Shown in pieces: positions 21,336-34,417 of a stretch of 43,497 nt of DNA; within the stretch, counting starts at the first letter, position 1; each line of letters begins with the position of its first letter. A program made the position numbers and the translations under genes. Under the pieces are notes generated by a model, which saw only the letters and a program-made list of their open reading frames with translations, searched no databases and was not told the DNA's origin. Source of the DNA: an uncultured Clostridia bacterium (GTDB taxonomy: Bacteria > Bacillota > Clostridia > Oscillospirales > Ruminococcaceae). The DNA lies in assembly GCA_947600065.1 (NCBI GenBank), contig CANQFZ010000013.1, positions 1 through 43,497 on the forward strand. Reading direction: 5' to 3'.

Positions 21336-23099
21336 TTAAATCGGCTCTGTCGCTTTTCTCAGCCACTCTTTTTCTTCTTCGTCCATAAGCGGCGAAAGCT
21401 TTTCAAAAACGAGCGCGTGATAATCGTTTAGAGTTTCAATTTGATGAGGATCAAGATACTTCTTTTCAATTCCCTCGCGGTCAAAAGGAACGAGCGTAAG
21501 CGGCGAAAATTTTAAAAATCCCGTTTCATTGTCAGCCTCGCACAACAGCAAGCTCTCATGCCTTATCCCGAACTTTCCCTCGACATACAGCCCGGGCTCG
21601 TCGGAGGTTATCATTCCTTCTTGAAGCGGCACTTCCTCTGCCGCGCGGCAGCTTATGCGCTGGGGGCCCTCGTGGACGTTCAGCACAAAGCCTACTCCGT
21701 GACCCGTGCTGTGTCTGTAGTCATAACCGTTCTGCCAGAGCGGTTCACGCGCGGCATAATCGAGGGTGCTTCCCCTCATGTCTTTGGGGAACTTTGCCGC
21801 AAGAAGGTTTAAATGCCCCGCGAGCACAAGCGTGAATGCGCGTTTTTCTTCTTCGGAAATTTCTCCGAGCACAAAGGTTCGGGTTATGTCGGTCGTGCCG
21901 TCAAGATAATGCCCGCCCGTATCTGAAAGCAACATTCCGCGCGGCTTTATCTCCGCGTTTGTTTCCTCCGTCACCGAATAATGCACTATAGCTCCGTGTT
22001 CTCCGTATGCCATTATCGGCGCAAAACTCTGCCCGAGGTAGTTTTCTCCGAGTTTTCTAAGCTCTTCGAGCTTTTCCGCCGCAGAAATTTCGGTCACTTT
22101 TTCAAAACCTACAGATGACTTCAGCCATTTCATAAAGCGCGTTACGGCAAGTCCGTCGCGGATATGAGCGTTCTTTTCGCAAGATATCTCCACATCGTCC
22201 TTTATTGCTTTAATAAGCTCTATGGGGCTTGGAGCATGTTTACCAATTGATTGCGACTTCTTTGAGGACTCAAGTGTGTGATTAGCGGTTTTTACGTCAA
22301 ACCAAATGGACTTGTTATATGCTGCTATTTCGCTGTAAATATCGTTGTAATCAAGAATTTCGATATTGTCGGCTTTAAGTTTTTCTACTATCTCGTCGCT
22401 GAATATCGTTTTATTCGCAAACAGCTTTGTGGGAGAGTTGTCCGTAAATATCATCATAAAAGCCAAAAACAGCGGACAGTATTCAATATCCCCGCCGCGC
22501 AGATTTAAGGTCCACGCTATCTCGTCAAGCGCGGAAACGACAAGGCAGTCTGCTTCTTTCTCTTTCAGTTTCTCACGGATAAGAGCTATCTTTTCCGCTC
22601 TTGTCCTGCCGCAATATTTTTCGGGCAGCATAAAAACAGGTTCTGCCGAAAGCGGCGGGCGGTCTTTCCAAACGAGCTCTCCGAAATCAATATCGGTAAG
22701 AAGCGAGGCTTTCTTTCTGAGATCACGCTCGAGAATAAATGCATACATATCTGAAACCGTTCTCCCGTCAAATCCGAGCACGGAATTTTCGGGCATTTCA
22801 TTCTTTAGGAAATCTTCTATAGTCGGCGTTTCGCTGTCTCCCATTTTCATAAGTGAAATGCCGCTGTCCGAAAGTTCGCGTTCAGCCTGTAAAAAATAGC
22901 GCCCGTCCGTCCAGAGAGCCGCTTTGTCGAGCGTTACGACAAGCGTTCCCGCAGAGCCCGTAAAGCCGCTCAGATACTCGCGGAGCTTGAAGTACTCTCC
23001 GATGTATTCCGAACAGTGAAAGTCGCTCGAAGGGATAACAGCCGCGTATATTCCCTTGCTTCTCATAACTTCCCGAAGCATTTCAATTTCTTTTTTCAT
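21336..23099 (-). CDS. Xaa-Pro aminopeptidase (M24B, long APP1-like form)
   Basis: A 587-residue metallopeptidase that would remove an N-terminal residue preceding proline. Two creatinase-type N-terminal domains (residues 1-300: GFTGSAGTLVVTLDKAALW, TDGRYFLQAE) precede the pita-bread catalytic domain. Dinuclear metal ligands are visible: the two Asp of LLSDTGGHYLDGTTDITRTF, the His of STGHGVGFVLNVHEGP, and Glu residues in SDEPGLYVEGKFGIRHE. The length fits the eukaryote-like three-domain form common in Clostridia rather than short PepP or PepQ. ATG 23099 is chosen because GAGGTG lies eight bases upstream; an ATG at 23117 has none. The start overlaps the pulA end by 17 bases, implying translational coupling. 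No signal peptide, so cytosolic. Confidence 0.93.
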   Translation of the reverse strand: MKKEIEMLREVMRSKGIYAAVIPSSDFHCSEYIGEYFKLREYLSGFTGSAGTLVVTLDKAALWTDGRYFLQAERELSDSGISLMKMGDSETPTIEDFLKNEMPENSVLGFDGRTVSDMYAFILERDLRKKASLLTDIDFGELVWKDRPPLSAEPVFMLPEKYCGRTRAEKIALIREKLKEKEADCLVVSALDEIAWTLNLRGGDIEYCPLFLAFMMIFTDNSPTKLFANKTIFSDEIVEKLKADNIEILDYNDIYSEIAAYNKSIWFDVKTANHTLESSKKSQSIGKHAPSPIELIKAIKDDVEISCEKNAHIRDGLAVTRFMKWLKSSVGFEKVTEISAAEKLEELRKLGENYLGQSFAPIMAYGEHGAIVHYSVTEETNAEIKPRGMLLSDTGGHYLDGTTDITRTFVLGEISEEEKRAFTLVLAGHLNLLAAKFPKDMRGSTLDYAAREPLWQNGYDYRHSTGHGVGFVLNVHEGPQRISCRAAEEVPLQEGMITSDEPGLYVEGKFGIRHESLLLCEADNETGFLKFSPLTLVPFDREGIEKKYLDPHQIETLNDYHALVFEKLSPLMDEEEKEWLRKATEPI

Positions 23100-24864
23100 T
23101 GGTTTTACACCTCGCAATAAGAACGCTGTGTTTCCCGCAGGACAGTCCTTTTTTCAGATACAGCGGGCTGTCCGAAGCGGAATTTTCATCAGCGTAAATT
23201 TCATATTCATAGTTTTTATCAATTACAAGTTTTTTGTCGGTAGGGTTTATTATCATCACAAACTTTTCGTTTTTCATGACAATAAAGCCGTTTGTTTCGG
23301 AAAATGTTCCGCCGCCGAACTCATTCAAAAACCGCTTTCTGAAAGCTAAAATTCCTCGGTAATATTCGCAGAGAGCGCGATTTTCGGAGATCATATCCCA
23401 CTTTATGGAGTTTATGCTGTCGGGGAGGTCATAGCTGTTCGAGCTATGATTTTTGGTTCGGAGAAACTCCTGACCCGAGTGCAGGAATAAAATGCCTTTT
23501 GATACTGCCAGAAGCGCAGCGGCTGTTTTTTCGAGAGGCATTATTTTGCGTTTGTCATGTGTTTTAAGCGCAATACATAGCCTGTCAAAAAGCGTGTGGT
23601 CGTCGTGACATTCGGCATAATTTATCGTCTGCGATATTTCGCAAATACCGCGCTTTCCTAAAACGGCATTTTTTATCGGCTCAAAGCGCCCCATATTCCC
23701 GCACAAAAATCCCTTGTCGTTTACGTCAAAGACATTCCCGCGAAGCGCGTCGCGGAAGCTGTCGCTGAAAAAAGCAATTCCCGAAAGCCTGTCTGCGTTT
23801 TTAAGTACCGCGCGGCGGTTTTCCGAAAGAGCGCTCTCCCCGCCTGTCCAGCCCTCTCCGTAAATGAGAATGTCGGGGTTTATTGCTTTCAGCTTTTTTC
23901 GGATAAACCTCATCGTTTCAATATCCAGAAGCCCCATAAGGTCAAAGCGAAATCCGTCCAGATGATATTCTCTTGCAAGGAATGTGACGCTGTCAAGAAT
24001 AAACTTCCGCGCCATTTTCCTCTCGCTCGCAAACTCGTTTCCGCAGCCCGAGCCGTTTGAAAATCCGTTCTCTCCCCTGAAAAAATACCCCGACACCTGC
24101 CGCTCAAAAACAGACCTTCCCGCGTCAAAAACGTGATTATAAACAACGTCCGCTATAACTCCCATTCCCGCGTTATGGACCGCCATAACAAGTTTTCTTA
24201 GTTCAATTATCGCGTTATCGACGGCATAATAACCGCAGGGAGCGTTATAAAAACGCGGGTCGTATCCCCAGTTATATTCTCGTTTATTGTAATCAAAATC
24301 GAAAACGGGCATGAGTTGTATATGCGTTACGCCGAGGGTTTTTATATATTCAAGCCCGCAGACGTCGCCATAACTGTTCTTTACATTCTCTTCGCAAAAC
24401 GCAAGGAATTTTCCGCGGTTTGAAAAGCCCGCGCTTTCGTCCATAGAAAAATCGCGGACGGAAAGCTCGTAGATTATCGGGTCTTTAATTGAAACGGGCT
24501 TGTCGTTTTCCCAACCGAGCGGCGCGTTTTTGTCCATATCCGTTATGATACCGCGCGTTCCGTCTTTGTTTATAAGATATGAATAGCTGTCGGAAAACTC
24601 TCTTTCCTTGCCGTTTTGAATAACCGAAAAGTCATACTCTTTTCCCGAAAGGTCTCCTTTTACTTCAAGCTCGAAAACGCTTTTGTTACGTTTCATACGG
24701 ACTTTAAAAATACGCTTGTTATCCGCGTTGTAAAGCCTTAAAAAAGCCTTTTCGGCAAAAGGCTGCCAAAATCTGAAAAGCGTTTTATTCGGCGAATAAA
24801 TTGCTCCCAATTTGCCGCGAAAGCCGCTCTTTTCGATTATTTTAAGCTCACTTTTTGTCATCAT
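23083..24864 (-). CDS. pulA: Type I pullulanase, intracellular (GH13)
   Basis: A 593-residue alpha-1,6-debranching enzyme. Residues 20-115 form a CBM48-like beta-sandwich (FRFWQPFAEKAFLRLYNAD), followed by the GH13 barrel. The type I pullulanase signature YNWGYDP is present. The catalytic triad is the Asp of GFRFDLMGLL (nucleophile), the Glu of YGEGWTGG (acid/base) and the Asp of AECHDDHTLFDRL. There is no signal peptide, so it works on cytosolic glycogen or imported maltodextrin, in step with malQ two genes upstream. The gene starts at ATG 24864 (or 24861), overlapping the TtcA-like gene end by 17 bases. It is slightly shorter than many intracellular pullulanases, with no visible extra N-terminal domain. 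Confidence 0.93.
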   Translation of the reverse strand: MMTKSELKIIEKSGFRGKLGAIYSPNKTLFRFWQPFAEKAFLRLYNADNKRIFKVRMKRNKSVFELEVKGDLSGKEYDFSVIQNGKEREFSDSYSYLINKDGTRGIITDMDKNAPLGWENDKPVSIKDPIIYELSVRDFSMDESAGFSNRGKFLAFCEENVKNSYGDVCGLEYIKTLGVTHIQLMPVFDFDYNKREYNWGYDPRFYNAPCGYYAVDNAIIELRKLVMAVHNAGMGVIADVVYNHVFDAGRSVFERQVSGYFFRGENGFSNGSGCGNEFASERKMARKFILDSVTFLAREYHLDGFRFDLMGLLDIETMRFIRKKLKAINPDILIYGEGWTGGESALSENRRAVLKNADRLSGIAFFSDSFRDALRGNVFDVNDKGFLCGNMGRFEPIKNAVLGKRGICEISQTINYAECHDDHTLFDRLCIALKTHDKRKIMPLEKTAAALLAVSKGILFLHSGQEFLRTKNHSSNSYDLPDSINSIKWDMISENRALCEYYRGILAFRKRFLNEFGGGTFSETNGFIVMKNEKFVMIINPTDKKLVIDKNYEYEIYADENSASDSPLYLKKGLSCGKHSVLIARCKTNEKRN

Positions 24865-25660
24865 CTTCAAACCTGTCAAGAAAGCTGTGTATCCCGTCGC
24901 TGTCCTTGTATGAGATTATCCTGTCAAGGCGGACGTTATGCACGCTTCGGAAAATGTTCACGGCTACCTGCGGATTTTCCTCGCAAAGCTCTGCGATAAG
25001 CCGCTTTATCGCCGCACGCTCCGAGCCGTTTTCGCGGTCTTTAAGCGCGCAGTCGCAGCCCGCTCTTTCTATTTTGCACCTGTCCGCCCACTCGATTATG
25101 TCCTTTTCACGGACAAAATACAAAGGACGGATAAGCTCCATTCCCTCAAAATTCTGAGCCTTTACGCGCGGGAGCATTGTCTGAGCCTGCCCGCCGTAAA
25201 GCATACCCATAAGTATGCTTTCTATTGCGTCGTCGAAATGATGTCCGAGAGCAATTTTGCCGCAGCCGAGCTCCTTTGCTTTTTTGTACAGCAGTCCCCT
25301 GCGCATTTTTGAACACAGAAAGCAGGGGTTTTTCTCCTTTTCAACGAGCCTGAAAACATCGGTCTTAAAGATCGTAAGATCAACATTGAGGCGCTCTGCG
25401 TTTGACTTTATAATACTAAGCGTCTGCTCGGAAAAGCCCGCGTCCATTGTGAGATATTTTACGGATATGGGTGTTTTCCCGTAAAGCTCGTATCTGCGAA
25501 AGAGCGCCGCAAGCAGAAGCGAATCTTTTCCTCCCGAAACGCAGACGCATATTTTGTCGCCGCTTTTAAAGAGCCTGTATTCTTCTATTGCCTTATAAAA
25601 AGGCTTTGTAATGCCGTGGGCAAAATCTTTGCTGAGGCTGTCGAGAATTATGTCTTTCAT
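24848..25660 (-). CDS. ttcA: TtcA-like tRNA 2-thiolation ATPase (PP-loop)
   Basis: A 270-residue enzyme of the TtcA/TilS superfamily, expected to adenylate and thiolate a tRNA base such as C32. The PP-loop is VSGGKDSLLL near residue 45. The pair of cysteines PCFLCSKMRRGLL and a later AGCDCALKD supply the Fe-S cluster cysteines typical of TtcA, and GHHFDDAIES is the second family signature. The frame is open up to 25906, but that extension lies inside malQ and lacks homology. ATG 25660 overlaps the malQ stop as ATGA, giving the family N-terminus MKDIILDSLSKDFAHGI. No good ribosome binding site is present, which fits translational coupling to malQ. TilS is ruled out by length and cysteines. Confidence 0.85.
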   Translation of the reverse strand: MKDIILDSLSKDFAHGITKPFYKAIEEYRLFKSGDKICVCVSGGKDSLLLAALFRRYELYGKTPISVKYLTMDAGFSEQTLSIIKSNAERLNVDLTIFKTDVFRLVEKEKNPCFLCSKMRRGLLYKKAKELGCGKIALGHHFDDAIESILMGMLYGGQAQTMLPRVKAQNFEGMELIRPLYFVREKDIIEWADRCKIERAGCDCALKDRENGSERAAIKRLIAELCEENPQVAVNIFRSVHNVRLDRIISYKDSDGIHSFLDRFEDDDKK

Positions 25661-27135
25661 AGGCGCATATATATCTCGGCAAATTCTTTGAGCATTTTCG
25701 CGTGTTTGTTTTTCAAGGCTTTTTTGCCTATTCTCCAGCTCCAGTTTCCGCCGAGAGTGGACGGCAGGTTCATTCTTCCCTTTTTGCCGAGCCCTAAAAT
25801 GTCCTGCGCGGGAATTATCGCAAGGTTTGCGGGAGAAGCGTATGCCGCGCGGATAGCGCAGTTGTTGAGCTTCATGGAAAACAGCTTTCCGAGATACTTT
25901 CTGCACATCGCCTTGGTTTTAAGATCCGCTTCGGAATACCACTGCGCAAATGTCGCGTTATCGTGTGTTCCCGTATAACAAACGCAGTTCTTCGGATAAT
26001 TGTGCGGGAGATGATCATTGTCGGAGTTTTCGGGATTAAACCCGAACTGAAGCACTCTCATTCCCGGAAAACCGCTTTCGGCTAGAAGCTGTTTTACGCT
26101 GTCGAAAATATCTCCGAGATCTTCGGCGATTATATCCGCATTCGGAACTTCTTTTGCGATAATGTTAAACAAATTCATGCCCGGACCTTTTTCCCAATTT
26201 CCGTGTTCTGCCGTTTTTTCTCCGAACGGAATTGCATAATAGGTGTCAAATGCACGGAAATGGTCAATTCTAAGCATATCGAAAAGCTCGGCGGATCTCT
26301 TTACTCGAGCCACCCACCATGCATAATCGTTCATCTTCATGGCCGCCCAGTCGTAGAGCGGATTTCCCCAGAGCTGACCCGTCTTTGAAAAATAATCGGG
26401 TGGTACTCCCGCAACACGCCTCGGATTAAGTCTTTCGTCAAGCTCAAACAGATTAGGCTCTGCCCAAACGTCCGAGCTGTCGGGGGAAACATAGATCGGT
26501 ATGTCTCCAATTATCTTAATGCCTTTTTGCGAACAGGTATTATGAAAGCGCGTCCACTGACGGAAGAAAATGTACTGGCAGAACTTGTGATAGCGAATTT
26601 CTTCCGAAAGATCTTCGGAATATCTCTTTACAGCGTCCGCGCGGCGGAATTTTATATCGTCGTCCCACTGCGTCCAGGGTCTCCCGCCAAACTTGCTCTT
26701 AACCGCCATAAACAGCGCGTAATCATCGAGCCAGCTTTTCTGTTCAAGCGCAAAGCCCGTAAACCCGACGTCGTCCGTGAAATTTGCGAGAGCTTTATGC
26801 AAAAGCTCCGAGCGTGTTTTCGACACCTTTTCATAATCGACCACAAGCGGGTCTGCGCCATAATCGGCGTTTTCACACTCTGTTTTTGACAGAAGCCCCT
26901 GCTCGCAAAGCTCGTCAAGGTCTATCATAAGCGGATTTCCCGCGAATGACGAGAAAGGCTGATAGGGAGAATCCCCGTATCCCGTAGGTCCTATAGGAAG
27001 CACCTGCCAGTATGTCTGACCTGCGCTTTTGAGCCAATCCGCAAATTTCTCGGCTTCTTCTCCGAGAGTTCCTATTCCGTATTTTGACGGAAGCGAGGTT
27101 ATATGCATAAGAACTCCGCAGCTTCTTTTATCCAT
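25657..27135 (-). CDS. malQ: 4-alpha-glucanotransferase (amylomaltase)
   Basis: A 492-residue GH77 enzyme that transfers alpha-1,4-glucan segments between maltodextrins. Family motifs are clear: SCGVLMHITSLPSKYGIGTLG at the N-terminus, YWQVLPIGPTGYGDSPYQPF, DIPIYVSPDSSDVWAEPNLF, RIDHFRAFDTYYAIPFG (catalytic Asp), IIAEDLGDI (catalytic Glu), and CYTGTHDNAT (third Asp). Start ATG 27135 has AAGGAG upstream. The stop overlaps the next start as ATGA. Together with pulA it forms a cytosolic route for glycogen or maltodextrin breakdown, although a tRNA thiolation gene sits between them. No transporter or phosphorylase gene is in the neighbourhood. Confidence 0.97.
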   Translation of the reverse strand: MDKRSCGVLMHITSLPSKYGIGTLGEEAEKFADWLKSAGQTYWQVLPIGPTGYGDSPYQPFSSFAGNPLMIDLDELCEQGLLSKTECENADYGADPLVVDYEKVSKTRSELLHKALANFTDDVGFTGFALEQKSWLDDYALFMAVKSKFGGRPWTQWDDDIKFRRADAVKRYSEDLSEEIRYHKFCQYIFFRQWTRFHNTCSQKGIKIIGDIPIYVSPDSSDVWAEPNLFELDERLNPRRVAGVPPDYFSKTGQLWGNPLYDWAAMKMNDYAWWVARVKRSAELFDMLRIDHFRAFDTYYAIPFGEKTAEHGNWEKGPGMNLFNIIAKEVPNADIIAEDLGDIFDSVKQLLAESGFPGMRVLQFGFNPENSDNDHLPHNYPKNCVCYTGTHDNATFAQWYSEADLKTKAMCRKYLGKLFSMKLNNCAIRAAYASPANLAIIPAQDILGLGKKGRMNLPSTLGGNWSWRIGKKALKNKHAKMLKEFAEIYMRL

Positions 27136-28826: not shown

Positions 28827-28855
28827 TTGAAAAATTTTTTTATTTGTGCTATAAT
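28827..28855 (+). promoter_or_regulatory. Promoter for the rlmB-era operon, extended -10
   Basis: TTGAAA (28827-28832), a 17-base spacer and TATAAT (28850-28855), with TG one base upstream of the -10 hexamer (extended -10). The rlmB start is about 40 bases downstream. Confidence 0.75.
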
Positions 28856-28896: not shown

Positions 28897-29631
28897 ATGG
28901 AAAATAGTTCTGAAAATCAGATCATCTTTGGGCGAAACGCCGTTACAGAAGCGCTTCGCTCGGATAAGACTGTAGACACTGTCTACATACAAAAAGACCT
29001 TAAAATCGAAGGTATCGCTGCTCTTGCAAAAGAACGCGGCGCCGTAGTAAAGATCGTCGGCGCGGAAAAGATAGCTTCTCTTTCGGGAACACAGAAAAAC
29101 GGCGGCGTTTGCGCGGAGCTGTCTGCGGCAGAATATGCAGAGCTTTCGGATATCCTTGAGGTATCGAAGATAAAAGGAAAGCCGCCTTTTGTAGTTATAG
29201 CGGACGAAATAGCCGACCCTCATAATCTCGGTGCAATTATCCGAACGGCTGAGGCGGCGGGAGCCGACGGCGTTATTATCCCGAAAAGACGGAGCGTAGG
29301 ACTTAACGCAACGGTGTTTAAGACTTCGGCAGGCGCGGCGGCTTGGATAAAGGTCGCAAGGGTTACAAATCTTGTGGAAACAATAAAGACGCTGAAGAAA
29401 AACAATATATGGGTATACGGTATGGAAGCCGACGGAGAGCCCTATGAAAAGGTAGATTTTTCGGGAGGAGCGGCAATTGTCGTAGGCTCCGAAGGCGCGG
29501 GGCTTTCAAGGCTCGTGAGAGAAAACTGCGACAGGACAGTTTCACTGCCGATGAACGGAAAAGTAAATTCTCTGAATGCTTCGGTTTCGGCGGGAATACT
29601 TATGTACGAAATAATTAAATACAGGAAATAA
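28897..29631 (+). CDS. rlmB: 23S rRNA 2'-O-methyltransferase (RlmB/TrmH family)
   Basis: A 244-residue SPOUT-class methyltransferase that should 2'-O-methylate a guanosine of 23S rRNA (G2251 in E. coli). The N-terminal substrate-binding domain has IIFGRNAVTEALRSDKTVD. The knotted catalytic domain shows three motifs: ADEIADPHNLGAIIRTAEAA, VGSEGAGLSRLVRENCD, and SLPMNGKVNSLNASVSAGIL. The length and motifs fit RlmB, but TrmH-like relatives with other targets cannot be excluded. It begins with ATG 28897 after AGAGGAAAAAT. It heads a seven-gene plus-strand operon with several other RNA-modification genes. Confidence 0.93.
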   Translation: MENSSENQIIFGRNAVTEALRSDKTVDTVYIQKDLKIEGIAALAKERGAVVKIVGAEKIASLSGTQKNGGVCAELSAAEYAELSDILEVSKIKGKPPFVVIADEIADPHNLGAIIRTAEAAGADGVIIPKRRSVGLNATVFKTSAGAAAWIKVARVTNLVETIKTLKKNNIWVYGMEADGEPYEKVDFSGGAAIVVGSEGAGLSRLVRENCDRTVSLPMNGKVNSLNASVSAGILMYEIIKYRK

Positions 29632-29650: not shown

Positions 29651-32446
29651 ATGGCAAAAAAGAATTATGATATCGACAATATTCTGAAAGAAGTTGACGA
29701 TCTGCGTATCGACGAATCTGACGATAATACGGACGGTAATAAAAAGAACCTTGCGGGTTCGCAGAAAAAATCGGGAACAAAGGCTGACAAAAAGCCCGAT
29801 TTCAGCGTTACACAGGTTATTGATCAATATTCCGACAAGAAGAAAGGAGCTGCCGCAAAGCAGTCGTCCGACAGCTCAAAGGAAACAGAACCCGAAAGCG
29901 AAAAAGTAAAACGCCTTTTTGACGACGATCTGCGCGGAAAGAAAAAAACCGACAGCAAGATGTTTTTGGACAGCGGCGACCAAAAAACCTCGGACAAAGA
30001 ATTAGAACAAAAGTCCGAGAGCGATGAATTTGTTTTCCATACAAAGGAAGATCTCGTTACTACAGACGAAATGAAAAAACGCAAGCAGCAGCGCATAGAC
30101 GAAATAAACGAAGCGCTTTTAAAGGCTGACTTTGAAGCACAAAGCGACGACGAGATGCTGGATCTTATGAACCCTGCCGAAAAGCGCGAAAAAGTTGCGG
30201 ATATGCTTAGAGCGGGCGACGAAAAAGGCGACAAGGCTAACACTCTCTCGATTTCCGAAAAAGATTTAAAAAACATTGCAAAAGAAGAATATGTTATAGA
30301 ATATAAGCCGCACGTAAAAGAAACCGATACTCCCGACGAGATATTGGGCGCTTCGGCAAAACAACAACCGAGCCGCGGAGAAATGCATATAGGCGAATCC
30401 ATAACCGATGCGCTCGATAAAAAAATAGCTGTTGAAAGCGAACAGGAGCAGTCGAACGCCGCCGATACCGCTGATAACGAAGAAGACATATCGGACGTAC
30501 CTGATGACAGCGAAGATGTAGAAAAAATGCGCGAGGCAAACGAGCTTGCTCAAAAGCGCAAACGCAAGATAGCAAGCTTTATCCTCGAAAACCCGACCGA
30601 AGAAGAGGACGAATTTAAACCGACAAATGACGCCTTTGAAGAAAGTGAAGATGACGAAGAAGACGAAGACAAGCCCATTGACCTCGACGACGAAAACATT
30701 ATACGCGAGCGTCTGAGCCGCTCGTCAAAGGGACTTTTCTGGCGGCTTGTCATAACGGGAGTTTTGTTTGTTGTAACGCTTTTCATAGGCATAGTAAACA
30801 CTGCGAACATCCAGGAGCTCGGAGCGATCGGCGGCGTTATCAGCCTGCGCTCTGCAACGGAAAACTATCTTTATTGTATGCTGACTATAGGCGTTTTGTC
30901 GTTCGGCTCGTGTTCTTCGGTCATTGCAAACGGTTTTTCAAAGCTCTTTAAAAAGCGTCCCGACGGTGATACGCTGTGCGCGGTGGCGCATACGGCGGCA
31001 ATTGTCGCAATGATACCCTATCTTTTCAGGATAGATTATACTCAGCTTCAGCAATCACACGTTTATCTTGTGGTATCGCTCGCATTGCTCTGCTTTAACA
31101 CGCTTTCAAAGCTGATAACGGTAAAGACCGCGCAGAAGAACTTTGAATTTATTTCGGCCGACGGAGCAAAGTATTTCGCGGACTTCTGCGAAAAAGGCAG
31201 CGCCGAGCAGCTCGCAAAAGGCGCCGTTCCGGGCGTTCCGATAACGACGGCTGTGAGAAAGACCGAAATGCTGAAGGATTTCATTATTTCGACATACTGC
31301 GAGGACGCTTCGGACAAAATTGCGGGAAAAGCGTCTATAGTTACCGTTGCGGCGGCAATAATCGCGGCTGTAATTGCGTTTTTCACAAACGGAGATATAG
31401 ACTGGGAGAACAACCTCTCATGGAGCTTTACGGTGCTTTCGGCGGTATGCTGTCTGGGAGCGTCGCTGTCATGCTCTATGACTGTCACAATACCGCTTTT
31501 GTTCGCGTCTATAAAGGGGAAAAAGGATAAGTTCGCAATACTCGGTTATAATGCCGTAGAAAATTTCAGCGAAACGAACTCGGTGCTTGCAGAAGCGTCC
31601 GACCTATTCCCTCCCACGAGCGTAGTAATAAACAACATCTGCGGCTATGACAAACCCTCCGCACGCGGCGAAGGAAAAGTAAATATAGACGAAGCAATTA
31701 TCCTCGGAGCAAGTCTTGCTTATGCTTCGGGCAGTATCCTTTCGGACGCGCTGTTCAATATGCTCGACTATAAGAAGGAGCTTTTAAAGCCCGTGAGCGG
31801 CACGGTCTATGAAAACAACCTCGGAGTTATGGGCTGGATAGACAGAAGGAGAGTTCTCCTCGGAACGCGCGAACATATGATCGCTCACGAAATATCCGTT
31901 CCGAGCGTAAAGAAAGAGTCAGCCGCAAATACCAAAAATGACAATGTGATCTATCTTGCCGTCGGAGGAGAAGTCTGCCTGCTTTTCTTCGTATCGGTAA
32001 AAGCCGACGAAGTCATACAGGAAAAGGCAAGCAAGCTTTCGGAAGAAGGAGTAACGCTTCTGGTAAAGTCGGTGGACGGAATGATAACCGCTCCTTTTGT
32101 GGAAAACATATTCGGTCTATATGAGGGTTCTGTAAAGGTTATACCGTTTGACTGCCACGAAGTATTCAACAACTGCACGAAATTTGTATCGAGCGGAAGC
32201 GGAGCGCTTTCCGTTGACGGAACGTTCTCCTCTTTTGCCGAAGGTATTTCTGCGGCAAAAGGACTGCGCGCGAAAATTTCAATAGGCTCGATCATACAGA
32301 TAGTTACGGCGGGGCTCGGCATACTGCTTGCAATAATATTTATGTTCGCAAAGAATTACAGTATGTTCAACGGACTTTGGATACTTATCTACGGAGTGAT
32401 AAGCGCGGCGATAACCATAGGCGTTCCGTTTATAAAGCGGTTATGA
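29651..32446 (+). CDS. Degenerate P1B-type ATPase-like membrane protein with long acidic N-terminus
   Basis: A 931-residue protein. Residues 1-360 are acidic, Lys/Asp/Ser-rich and likely disordered. The rest copies the topology of heavy-metal P1B ATPases: four membrane helices (about 362-487), a shortened actuator region (about 488-556), two helices (about 557-615), a P/N-like region (about 616-878) and two final helices. The N-domain echo GVMGWIDRRRVLLGTREHM and the fold around VIYLAVGGEVCLLFFVSVKA are recognisable. Every catalytic motif is lost: no TGES, LSCSMTVTIP where CPCALGLATP belongs, DLFPPTS at D651 instead of DKTGT, and no TGD or GDGxND. It therefore cannot pump by the usual mechanism. 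Its role is unknown. The gene starts 19 bases after rlmB and overlaps tadA, so expression is coupled. Confidence 0.8.
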   Translation: MAKKNYDIDNILKEVDDLRIDESDDNTDGNKKNLAGSQKKSGTKADKKPDFSVTQVIDQYSDKKKGAAAKQSSDSSKETEPESEKVKRLFDDDLRGKKKTDSKMFLDSGDQKTSDKELEQKSESDEFVFHTKEDLVTTDEMKKRKQQRIDEINEALLKADFEAQSDDEMLDLMNPAEKREKVADMLRAGDEKGDKANTLSISEKDLKNIAKEEYVIEYKPHVKETDTPDEILGASAKQQPSRGEMHIGESITDALDKKIAVESEQEQSNAADTADNEEDISDVPDDSEDVEKMREANELAQKRKRKIASFILENPTEEEDEFKPTNDAFEESEDDEEDEDKPIDLDDENIIRERLSRSSKGLFWRLVITGVLFVVTLFIGIVNTANIQELGAIGGVISLRSATENYLYCMLTIGVLSFGSCSSVIANGFSKLFKKRPDGDTLCAVAHTAAIVAMIPYLFRIDYTQLQQSHVYLVVSLALLCFNTLSKLITVKTAQKNFEFISADGAKYFADFCEKGSAEQLAKGAVPGVPITTAVRKTEMLKDFIISTYCEDASDKIAGKASIVTVAAAIIAAVIAFFTNGDIDWENNLSWSFTVLSAVCCLGASLSCSMTVTIPLLFASIKGKKDKFAILGYNAVENFSETNSVLAEASDLFPPTSVVINNICGYDKPSARGEGKVNIDEAIILGASLAYASGSILSDALFNMLDYKKELLKPVSGTVYENNLGVMGWIDRRRVLLGTREHMIAHEISVPSVKKESAANTKNDNVIYLAVGGEVCLLFFVSVKADEVIQEKASKLSEEGVTLLVKSVDGMITAPFVENIFGLYEGSVKVIPFDCHEVFNNCTKFVSSGSGALSVDGTFSSFAEGISAAKGLRAKISIGSIIQIVTAGLGILLAIIFMFAKNYSMFNGLWILIYGVISAAITIGVPFIKRL

Positions 32447-32901
32447 TGCTGACTGACGAGGAATATATGGAAAAGGCTCTTGCGCTGGCAAAAAAGGCTT
32501 TTGATATGGGAGAAATTCCCGTTGGCGCTATAGTCGTAAACAAAGACGGAGAAATAATCGCAGAAGCCTATAACGAGCGAGAAACGCTTATTTCTCCCAC
32601 TGCTCACGCGGAGATACTCGCCATTGAGCGCGCCGCAAAAGCGCTTAAAAGCAGAAGACTTTCGGACTGTACTCTATATGTAACGCTCGAACCGTGTCCA
32701 ATGTGCGCGGGGGCGGTCATAAACGCATGTATAAAGCGCCTTGTTTACGGGGCATTTGACGAGAAAAACGGCGCTTGCGCTTCGGTGGCTACATTGTTTG
32801 ATGAAAAATTTACACATATTCCGCGCGTAAGAAGCAGAGTTCTCGAAGAAAAATGTGGGCAAATACTCTCGGATTTTTTCGGGAAATTGCGCGGGCAATA
32901 G
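32443..32901 (+). CDS. tadA: tRNA-specific adenosine deaminase
   Basis: A 152-residue zinc deaminase that converts A34 to inosine in tRNA-Arg(ACG). The zinc and catalytic motif HAEILAIERA supplies the His ligand and catalytic Glu, and PCPMCAGAVI supplies both Cys ligands. EIPVGAIVVN is the usual family segment. The frame runs upstream to 32377, but homology begins at MLTDEEYMEKALALAKKA. Two adjacent ATG codons fit: 32443 overlaps the previous stop as ATGA, and 32446 overlaps it by one base. The gene lies in an operon with rlmB, rimM and trmD, all acting on rRNA or tRNA. Confidence 0.95.
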   Translation: MMLTDEEYMEKALALAKKAFDMGEIPVGAIVVNKDGEIIAEAYNERETLISPTAHAEILAIERAAKALKSRRLSDCTLYVTLEPCPMCAGAVINACIKRLVYGAFDEKNGACASVATLFDEKFTHIPRVRSRVLEEKCGQILSDFFGKLRGQ

Positions 32902-32968: not shown

Positions 32969-34417
32969 ATGAGAGAAAAGCCTAATTCACAAAACAGATA
33001 CCGTACTCTCGCGGGAAATATCATAATATTGGGCATTGGGCAGTTCAGCTCCAAGCTTCTTGTGTATGTAATGCTGAAATTCTACACAAGTATGCTCGGA
33101 CCTGCGGGCTATGGCGATATGACAAACCTCATAAACGCCGGCGCGCTTCTTATCTCGGTTTTCTCGCTGTCCATTGCGGAAGGCGTATTGCGTTTCGGTC
33201 TTGAAAAAAACAACAACGGCAGTATGGTGTTTTCTATCGGAATAAACGTTGCAGTGTGCGGGTGCGTCGTATTTGCGGCGTTTGTGCCGCTGGTCGGGCT
33301 TATCCCGATGCTTAAAGGCTATGAGTGGATGCTGTTCATCTACGTTCTGGCGGGCGCTGTCAAAGAAGTATGCGGCATTTATGTGAGAGCAAGGGTCTCC
33401 GTAAAGCTGTTTGCGGTAGACGGCATACTGACTACGGTTTCAATGATAGTGTTCAACCTCGTTCTGCTCGGAATTTTCGGGCTGGGAATAAACGGTTATA
33501 TCTGGTCGGTCGTTCTGAGTAATCTTGCTTCCGTTATTTTCCTCAACATAACGGCAAAGCTCTACAAGCGCTATAGACCTATAGGGAACGATAAAACGCT
33601 TTATTCCTCAATGCTCCGATACAGCATACCGCTTATGCCGACGACGATAATGTGGTGGATCATAAATATGTCTGACGGCTTTATGGTCACTTCTTTTATC
33701 GGAAGCGACGCAAACGGTATCTACGGGTTTGCCTATAAATTTCCGAACCTTGCGGCAGTTGTAGTAGGCATTTTTGCCCAGGCGTGGCATATGTCCGCCA
33801 TAACCGAAAGAAACTCGCGCACCGTTTCAAACTTCTACTCGAATATTTTCAGCATGATGCAGACGGTGGTGTTTATCGCCTGTGCGGGGATAATGCTTAT
33901 TTTAAGACCCGTCATTATGCCGTTTTTCGGAACGGAAGAATTTGCGCCCGCGTATTTTTATGTTCCGACGCTGCTGGGCGCGGTTATTTTCCAGTGTTTC
34001 AACAACTTTCTGTCAAGCATATACGAGGCTTCGAGAAAAACTACCCATGCGCTCATTTCTTCGGCGATCGGCGCGGGAGCTAATATAATCCTAAACCTTC
34101 TGCTCATTCCCGCTATGGGCATAATAGGCGCGGCTGTTGCAACGTTTGCGAGCTATCTTATAGTATTTATCTACAGGGTCATTGATACGAAGAAGTTACT
34201 TTATATGACGATATACTGGCTTAAAGTCATTGTAAATATCCTGCTTCTTACGGGCATGGCGTGTTCGATAATGTTTTTAGAGTTCGGTCTGCTGCAGAAT
34301 GTAATTAACGCAGTTGTTTTCATTGTCATTGCCGCATTGAACTTCAAAACCTGTGTTCAGGCAGTTAGGTTAGTTTTAAACAAGAAAAAGGAAAAGAAAG
34401 ATGAAACAGTTTCTTGA
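32969..34417 (+). CDS. Lipopolysaccharide/polysaccharide flippase family (Wzx/MATE-like)
   Basis: A 482-residue membrane protein with about 14 hydrophobic helices and basic loops, matching the oligosaccharide flippase (polysaccharide biosynthesis protein) group of the MOP superfamily. The N-terminus RTLAGNIIILGIGQFSSKLL, then MLGPAGYGDMTNLINAGALL, is typical. IYGFAYKFPNLAAVVVGIFA and the late IIGAAVATFASYLIVFIYR also fit. It should flip a lipid-linked sugar intermediate across the membrane. The frame is open from 32855, inside tadA, but ATG 32969 gives the family start, with a rather distant GGGGAA upstream. The last 17 bases overlap rimM. The substrate is unknown, and its place among translation genes is odd though common in Clostridia. 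Confidence 0.85.
   Translation: MREKPNSQNRYRTLAGNIIILGIGQFSSKLLVYVMLKFYTSMLGPAGYGDMTNLINAGALLISVFSLSIAEGVLRFGLEKNNNGSMVFSIGINVAVCGCVVFAAFVPLVGLIPMLKGYEWMLFIYVLAGAVKEVCGIYVRARVSVKLFAVDGILTTVSMIVFNLVLLGIFGLGINGYIWSVVLSNLASVIFLNITAKLYKRYRPIGNDKTLYSSMLRYSIPLMPTTIMWWIINMSDGFMVTSFIGSDANGIYGFAYKFPNLAAVVVGIFAQAWHMSAITERNSRTVSNFYSNIFSMMQTVVFIACAGIMLILRPVIMPFFGTEEFAPAYFYVPTLLGAVIFQCFNNFLSSIYEASRKTTHALISSAIGAGANIILNLLLIPAMGIIGAAVATFASYLIVFIYRVIDTKKLLYMTIYWLKVIVNILLLTGMACSIMFLEFGLLQNVINAVVFIVIAALNFKTCVQAVRLVLNKKKEKKDETVS

Follow-up and report, generated by a model that had tools for sequence, protein, structure and literature searches.

Our results suggest that an order of Clostridia, probably the GTDB order Oscillospirales, carries an ancient and catalytically dead P1B-type ATPase that has been retained order-wide, and which, in the reading that we tentatively favor, would serve as a membrane scaffold or adaptor. 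The gene was studied in a window of 43,497 nucleotides, the whole stretch of DNA analysed, which belongs to a contig from an uncultured Clostridia bacterium (CANQFZ010000013.1); there it occupies positions 29651 to 32446 of the forward strand and encodes 931 aa with no internal stop, so that both the intact long frame and its exact coordinates given in an initial annotation stand. The designation of this gene as encoding a pseudo-P1B-ATPase (hereafter pseudo-pump) is based on a trace of TIGR01525, a match to LpCopA, profile-profile homology and motif loss. As homology to an enzyme, the loss of catalytic residues in all compared members and purifying selection coincide here, the family would qualify as a pseudoenzyme, as far as sequences can tell.

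Searches with the window protein returned nothing in Pfam at E<=1, and nothing in NCBIfam above the curated cut-off. Below the cut-off, NCBIfam gave a trace of the heavy-metal P-type ATPase model TIGR01525 (E 1.7e-5, residues 551-809, 23.9 bits, the cut-off being 346.25) and a second weak trace of CopA (E 3.2e-5), and a phmmer search against the PDB matched LpCopA (3rfu, E 1e-6, residues 558-843). In hhalign comparisons, an order-wide profile of 29 pseudo-pump members was aligned to one built from 12 ordinary P1B pumps of these genomes with 99.4% probability (E 5.6e-22, 445 columns), and a genus-only pseudo-pump profile with 96.6% (E 4.8e-10, 270 columns). Because of the E-value of the former comparison, which ties window residues about 439-899 to the P1B pumps, the likeness to P-type ATPases is beyond chance. 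We regard the homology to P1B pumps as secure on these alignments, with no structure needed; two AlphaFold2 models obtained from five close sequences had mean pLDDT values of 31.8 and 34.7, too low for either to be usable.

The catalytic apparatus of P1B pumps was searched for in 61 distinct pseudo-pump cores, after removal of L001, L027, L036, L052 and L084 (window-identical, partial or broken) and of 14 duplicates. DKTG, TGE[SP], CPC/CPH/SPC, EHP and GDGxND were each present in 0/61 cores, whereas all 12 ordinary P1B pumps compared displayed DKTG, TGE[SP], CPC, EHP, TGD and GDGxND; the letters TGD (3/61) and GDG (11/61) occurred in the pseudo-pumps at non-motif places. Thus, the proposed loss of all catalytic motifs holds for TGES, CPC, DKTGT and GDGxND, but not entirely for TGD, of which only the G is lost, the D being retained in 60/61 members and the T in 47/61. 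In the window, this TGD remnant (32069 to 32089, forward strand) reads S807-x-D809, T-x-D in most members, and is followed by I-T. Measured against an active heavy-metal pump, the family keeps the homology and lacks DKTGT, TGE with a full A domain, CPx, SEHP and GDGxND; with no phosphorylation motif, dephosphorylation loop or metal site, the known pump cycle should be out of its reach.

The site aligned to DKTGT (31583 to 31624, forward strand, residues 645-658) has E648 where the pumps carry the phosphorylated aspartate, followed by L-F-P. A new signature, [LIVF]-F-P, follows this position across the family (F in 52/61, P in 53/61), and its conservation together with that of T-x-D would be accounted for if the protein were an active ATPase or phosphatase whose site had been rebuilt, both elements forming a new catalytic center. 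We consider this highly improbable, as the phospho-Asp position itself is variable (E in 20 members, D in 18 and other residues in 23), GDGxND is absent throughout and the A domain is mostly missing.

The eight helices and P1B layout annotated at the outset were supported by family-averaged hydropathy, which placed helices at residues 366-384, 407-425, 441-459, 473-491, 561-579, 596-614, 881-899 and 910-928. Their order was read as MA MB M1 M2 / M3 M4 / M5 M6, as expected for P1B, and a ninth peak in the N-like region (766-784) as a buried strand; single sequences gave 5 to 11 peaks, most commonly 8 (23/61). On the forward strand of the window, the four helices read from hydropathy as MA, MB, M1 and M2, with M1 aligned to P1B, lie at 30746 to 31123 (residues 366-491), the shortened A-like loop without TGE at 31115 to 31324 (residues 489-558), the helices read as M3 and M4, without CPx, at 31331 to 31492 (residues 561-614), and those read from hydropathy as M5 and M6 at 32291 to 32434 (residues 881-928). 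A-, P- and N-like regions had also been proposed; a P/N remnant was found, but the A region is reduced to a loop of about 70 residues (58-71 across the family), compared to 129 residues separating the corresponding landmarks of ordinary P1B pumps, a figure defined by the invariant alignment columns E61 to A191 and reproduced by pattern search in 6/12 pumps, with other values or none in the remaining ones. Most of the A domain is therefore missing.

Taken together, the pseudo-pump resembles P1B ATPases (CopA/ZntA, TIGR01525; LpCopA 3rfu) in the eight-helix order, the cytosolic loop between M4 and M5, the N-domain core with G-x-G-like glycines and the D of TGD. Conversely, it differs from them in the absence of DKTGT, TGE, CPx, HP and GDGxND in 61 members, in the shortened A loop, and in a long acidic tail located where the pumps have metal-binding domains.

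The retention of eight helices, as well as that of P615, the proline following the lost CPx motif in M4 (50/61), raises the question of a passive or secondary transporter, or a lipid-binding protein, whose helix path works without being driven by ATP. This has been argued for human TMEM94, in which a P-ATPase-like body with A/P/N-like domains and no TGES is reported to bind lipid (PMC12134183), and whose structures, as reported there, do not run the pump cycle and argue against a pump role. The status of TMEM94 is disputed, since other work holds that it is a Mg2+ pump of the ER (PMC13322241); moreover, TMEM94 differs from the pseudo-pump in being eukaryotic, with ten helices and a retained D417. 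For the pseudo-pump we deem such a role distinctly unlikely, given that no conserved Cys/His/Ser metal-ligand set was found in M4 of the 61 members and that the long acidic tail would be left unexplained.

The main rival to the scaffold reading concerns the N-like region, which is the best-conserved stretch when families are compared. One segment of this domain (31814 to 31879, forward strand) carries G725 and G738, each invariant in 61/61 members, and these retained glycines together with T-x-D could reflect ligand binding instead of scaffolding. The protein would then be a regulator sensing a ligand or nucleotide, in which the N-like domain binds a nucleotide or another small molecule through the glycines and D809 (60/61), and this binding shifts the membrane portion or the tail as a signal; the conservation of the region between families agrees with this. 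On the other hand, the SEHP motif typical of P1B N-domains has lost its E and H in all members (EHP in 0/61) and the invariant glycines may be structural, and we regard sensing as possible, if rather unlikely.

The distribution of the pseudo-pump is wide within the order. A BLAST-like search recovered it in 55/61 near relatives, and as one copy in its own genome; a profile search found it in 184/197 genomes, 150/155 good assemblies and 105/111 genera of the order, with a single match per genome, except for two in G383. In a class-wide search of 291 genomes, the 12 from the order scored 305-753 bits with matches of almost full length; among the 279 outside, the best score was 133.6 bits for a partial match (positions 198-479), and the ten best matches proved to be CopA-type pumps that are intact and retain all six motifs. 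A phylum-wide search of 398 genomes gave full-length matches in all 6 from the order, and one of the 392 outside passed 1e-38, with a partial match (positions 198-478). In a tree of the M4-to-P region, the pseudo-pumps formed one clade (support 1.000), whose stem measured 1.68 substitutions per site. The possibility that the pseudo-pump substitutes for a lost pump was rejected, since ordinary P1B pumps scoring above the curated cut-off are present in 61/61 relatives. The order-wide retention (184/197), together with the lack of a Pfam or NCBIfam match above cut-off, points to an important function that has no name yet, and the gene would mark out the order cleanly.

Purifying selection on the pseudo-pump is strong, and in most pairs somewhat weaker than on the neighboring genes rlmB and tadA. 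Within the genus, dN/dS ranged between 0.043 and 0.154 for the core (11 pairs) and between 0.065 and 0.200 for the N-terminus (9 unsaturated pairs), compared to 0.038-0.086 for rlmB (10 pairs) and 0.029-0.100 for tadA (11 pairs), in pairs that overlap in their sequences (the window takes part in four) and of which several have dS values >1. The relaxed selection that would accompany a decaying gene was thus not observed. A decaying pseudogene or an assembly artefact would account for the broken frames in 2/19 family-level loci; yet given the purifying selection, the near-universal retention and the absence of further internal stops among the matches listed, we hold it to be extremely improbable, and for the family as a whole it was rejected on the basis of dN/dS and the 184/197 retention, even if single copies may be broken. 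The two broken copies, besides which none were seen among the matches listed, are that of G058, with an in-frame TGA (L036:3165-5561), and that of G047, with a frame break (L052:5221-7448); each is either real or an assembly error.

The gene had been placed inside an RNA-modification operon. Immediately upstream lies rlmB (28897 to 29631, forward strand; 23S rRNA Gm2251 methyltransferase, TIGR00186 E 2.8e-68, above cut-off), whose end is 19 bases from the pseudo-pump gene, and this neighbor was conserved in 52/53 informative genomes of the order. These derive from 77 rows which, some genomes being represented twice, amount to 62 genomes, 9 of them with <300 bases upstream; rlmB was also upstream in two more genomes (G321 and G199). 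In the one genome that deviates, G037, the upstream position is occupied by an Obg GTPase gene (L049:4137-5501) instead of rlmB. Over 64 loci, rlmB and the pseudo-pump gene were separated by a median of 18 bp; they overlapped by 4 bases at five loci, which belong to three genomes, and lay >100 bases apart in L018, L021, L022, L026, L017 and L036, in the last of these because its frame is broken. Upstream of rlmB, a promoter-like site, TTGAAA-17-TATAAT with TG before the -10 (28827 to 28855, forward strand), is a consensus match at 11/12 positions, in a region with 8 such sites compared to 5.6 expected by shuffling.

Downstream, the ATG of tadA (32446 to 32901, forward strand) overlaps the pseudo-pump stop codon by one base; the gene was identified with NF008113 (E 7.5e-44, 149.5 bits where the cut-off is 150, the query having begun one codon later). 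This neighbor is restricted to the genus: it was found in 28/29 genus loci, the contig of the remaining one (L020) ending first, and in 0/19 loci from other families, nor was it present in 3 loci that belong to the same family but to other genera, for which about 1.5 kb of downstream sequence was available in each case, or, on re-search, in 48 order-level loci and an extra same-family locus. In other families the downstream genes vary, and include NRDD, EF-G (three times), Iso_dh, Lon, nitroreductase (twice), SpoIID, YebC, methionine gamma-lyase, GH3, Era and GMP synthase, among others. The operon in its entirety was consequently rejected: only the linkage to rlmB is order-wide, and that to tadA is confined to the genus. 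Since rlmB stays upstream while the downstream genes vary, the selected pair is rlmB plus the pseudo-pump gene, and their linkage suggests dosage in step with ribosome production and not direct participation in rRNA methylation.

The N-terminal region of the window protein (29651 to 30703, forward strand, residues 1-351) is acidic and poor in hydrophobic residues, with 28% D+E, 17% K+R and a net charge of -42; the 360-residue acidic disordered N-terminus of the initial annotation is therefore acidic as described, but its length is about 351. Across 61 members, the tail had a median of 388 residues (range 9-605, some being shortened by contig ends), and it was near-neutral or positive in five. 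Near its putatively disordered tip we observed a consensus, [YF]-x-[ILV]-[DE]-[DE]-I-L-x-E, represented in the window by YDIDNILKEV (29666 to 29695, forward strand, residues 6-15). This motif is a new observation, and only in part of the order is it clearly recognizable. By pattern, it was found in 27/30 genus loci, the three misses lacking the true N-terminus, and in 7/19 loci of other families, among which L047 has I as its first residue and L036 matches within the leading fragment of its interrupted frame. A looser form was recognized by eye in several other-family loci, e.g., L038, L039 and L043, and none was seen by eye in L040 or L046. As L046 has only 9 residues before the core and L040 is devoid of the motif, tail and motif are not essential family-wide. 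The L046 member, from G045, is a protein of 544 residues without a long tail (L046:5487-7121), and further genomes of the same family (f10) have frames of only 550-564 aa, among the matches listed.

The tail-tip motif was also searched for in other proteins. Among 1589 ORFs of at least 80 aa from the window and loci L035-L113, scanned over their first 120 residues, the strict form occurred in the pseudo-pump alone, and a motif profile found no second motif-bearing protein in its own genome at E<=10. Run on 147 genomes from the order, this profile gave matches in 56 at E<=0.1, comprising 65 rows with chance matches included, the strongest being mostly the pseudo-pump itself. We read 18 rows that were not the pseudo-pump, 15 from these 65 and three from genome G423 (L134 among them): 8 had the motif at a tail tip, 8 appeared chance-like and 2, at contig ends, were probably torn pieces of the pseudo-pump (L143 and L145). 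The tail-tip rows were L121, L133, L135, L136, L137, L138, L139 and L140, and comprise an ABC-2 permease (L121), an LCP protein (L135), LspA with the motif at its last residues (L136), three VanW proteins (L138, and L137 and L140 named by their likeness to it) and a protein with a C-terminal tail motif, signal peptidase-like by eye and with no family match at E<=1e-5 (L133). The chance-like rows, named by eye, included two RecF, an XRE protein, a pyrophosphohydrolase, LigA, an internal site of a membrane protein, and AraC-like and MutS-like proteins; in LigA the site is also near the N-terminus, yet it is a cytosolic enzyme. In 196 class genomes, 10 had matches at E<=0.03, corresponding to 5/7 inside the order and 5/189 outside; none of the five outside matches was a clear tail tip and three had no clear motif, the two others read being an ABC-F-like protein and a match at residue 127 of a 491-residue membrane protein. 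The eight tail-tip rows were picked by the motif profile itself, and they therefore constitute a lead, not an enrichment test.

The eighth tail-tip protein, P0002 (G357, L139:1038-2924, reverse strand), is a second pseudo-pump with NKTGT in place of DKTGT and the motif YDLDDILREY from residue 13 of a low-complexity tail. These traits are shared with the pseudo-pump family, from which it differs by its retained SDHP and TGDN and by its tree position among ordinary ZntA-type pumps (support 0.754; FastTree, 42 sequences, including 10 of 29 ordinary matches). It was matched full-length in 1/147 genomes, and 29/29 other fetched matches carry DKTGT. For its grouping, P0002 was rejected as an intermediate of the pseudo-pump family, and it apparently decayed independently from a ZntA-type pump.

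A fixed membrane body carrying a long tail, with a short conserved peptide at the tail's end, has the build of an anchor or adaptor, and it is from this build that we infer the scaffold or adaptor function, just as a scaffold, sensor or regulator role had earlier been inferred. Together, the eight helices and the N/P remnant in the cytosol would form a fixed membrane platform, from which the long acidic tail would reach into the cytoplasm, where its terminal motif, when present, may bind a partner shared with certain other envelope proteins of the order. Co-transcription with rlmB would tie the dose of the pseudo-pump to ribosome production, i.e., to growth rate. The presence of the same peptide on the tails of LCP, LspA, VanW and ABC-2 proteins suggests a common cytosolic partner and offers a lead for scaffolding. 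A bolder version, which we find unlikely, is that the peptide [YF]-x-[ILV]-[DE]-[DE]-I-L-x-[ED], placed at the very end of disordered tails in the cytoplasm, is an order-private cytosolic address tag that gathers envelope proteins on one receptor, with the pseudo-pump, near-universal and tied to rlmB, as core client or hub and the LCP glycopolymer transferase, the ABC-2 exporter, LspA, the signal-peptidase-like protein and the VanW proteins as clients. In either case, the motif would be a handle on envelope organisation in poorly tractable bacteria.

Degenerate P-type ATPases have been described in eukaryotes, namely TMEM94 (PMC12134183) and Plasmodium guanylyl cyclase beta (PMC6592433). The cyclase is reported to carry a degenerate P-type ATPase domain with most signature residues unidentifiable, and differs from the pseudo-pump in being of P4 type, fused to a cyclase and from a protist (PMC6592433). 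In the open-access literature searched, we found no bacterial P-type ATPase family wholly turned pseudoenzyme, and nothing relevant on pseudo-, inactive, degenerate or non-catalytic bacterial P-type ATPases or on the pairing of rlmB with the pseudo-pump gene in Oscillospirales; open-access titles and the beginnings of abstracts on tail motifs contained none on the present one.

Two further observations concern the surroundings of the gene in the window. After tadA, a polysaccharide flippase-like gene (32969 to 34417, forward strand; PF01943 E 1.3e-12) is retained in genus loci. On the reverse strand, amylase/pullulanase-like, TtcA/TilS-like and malQ-like genes, named from their translations, lie together at 23083 to 27135.
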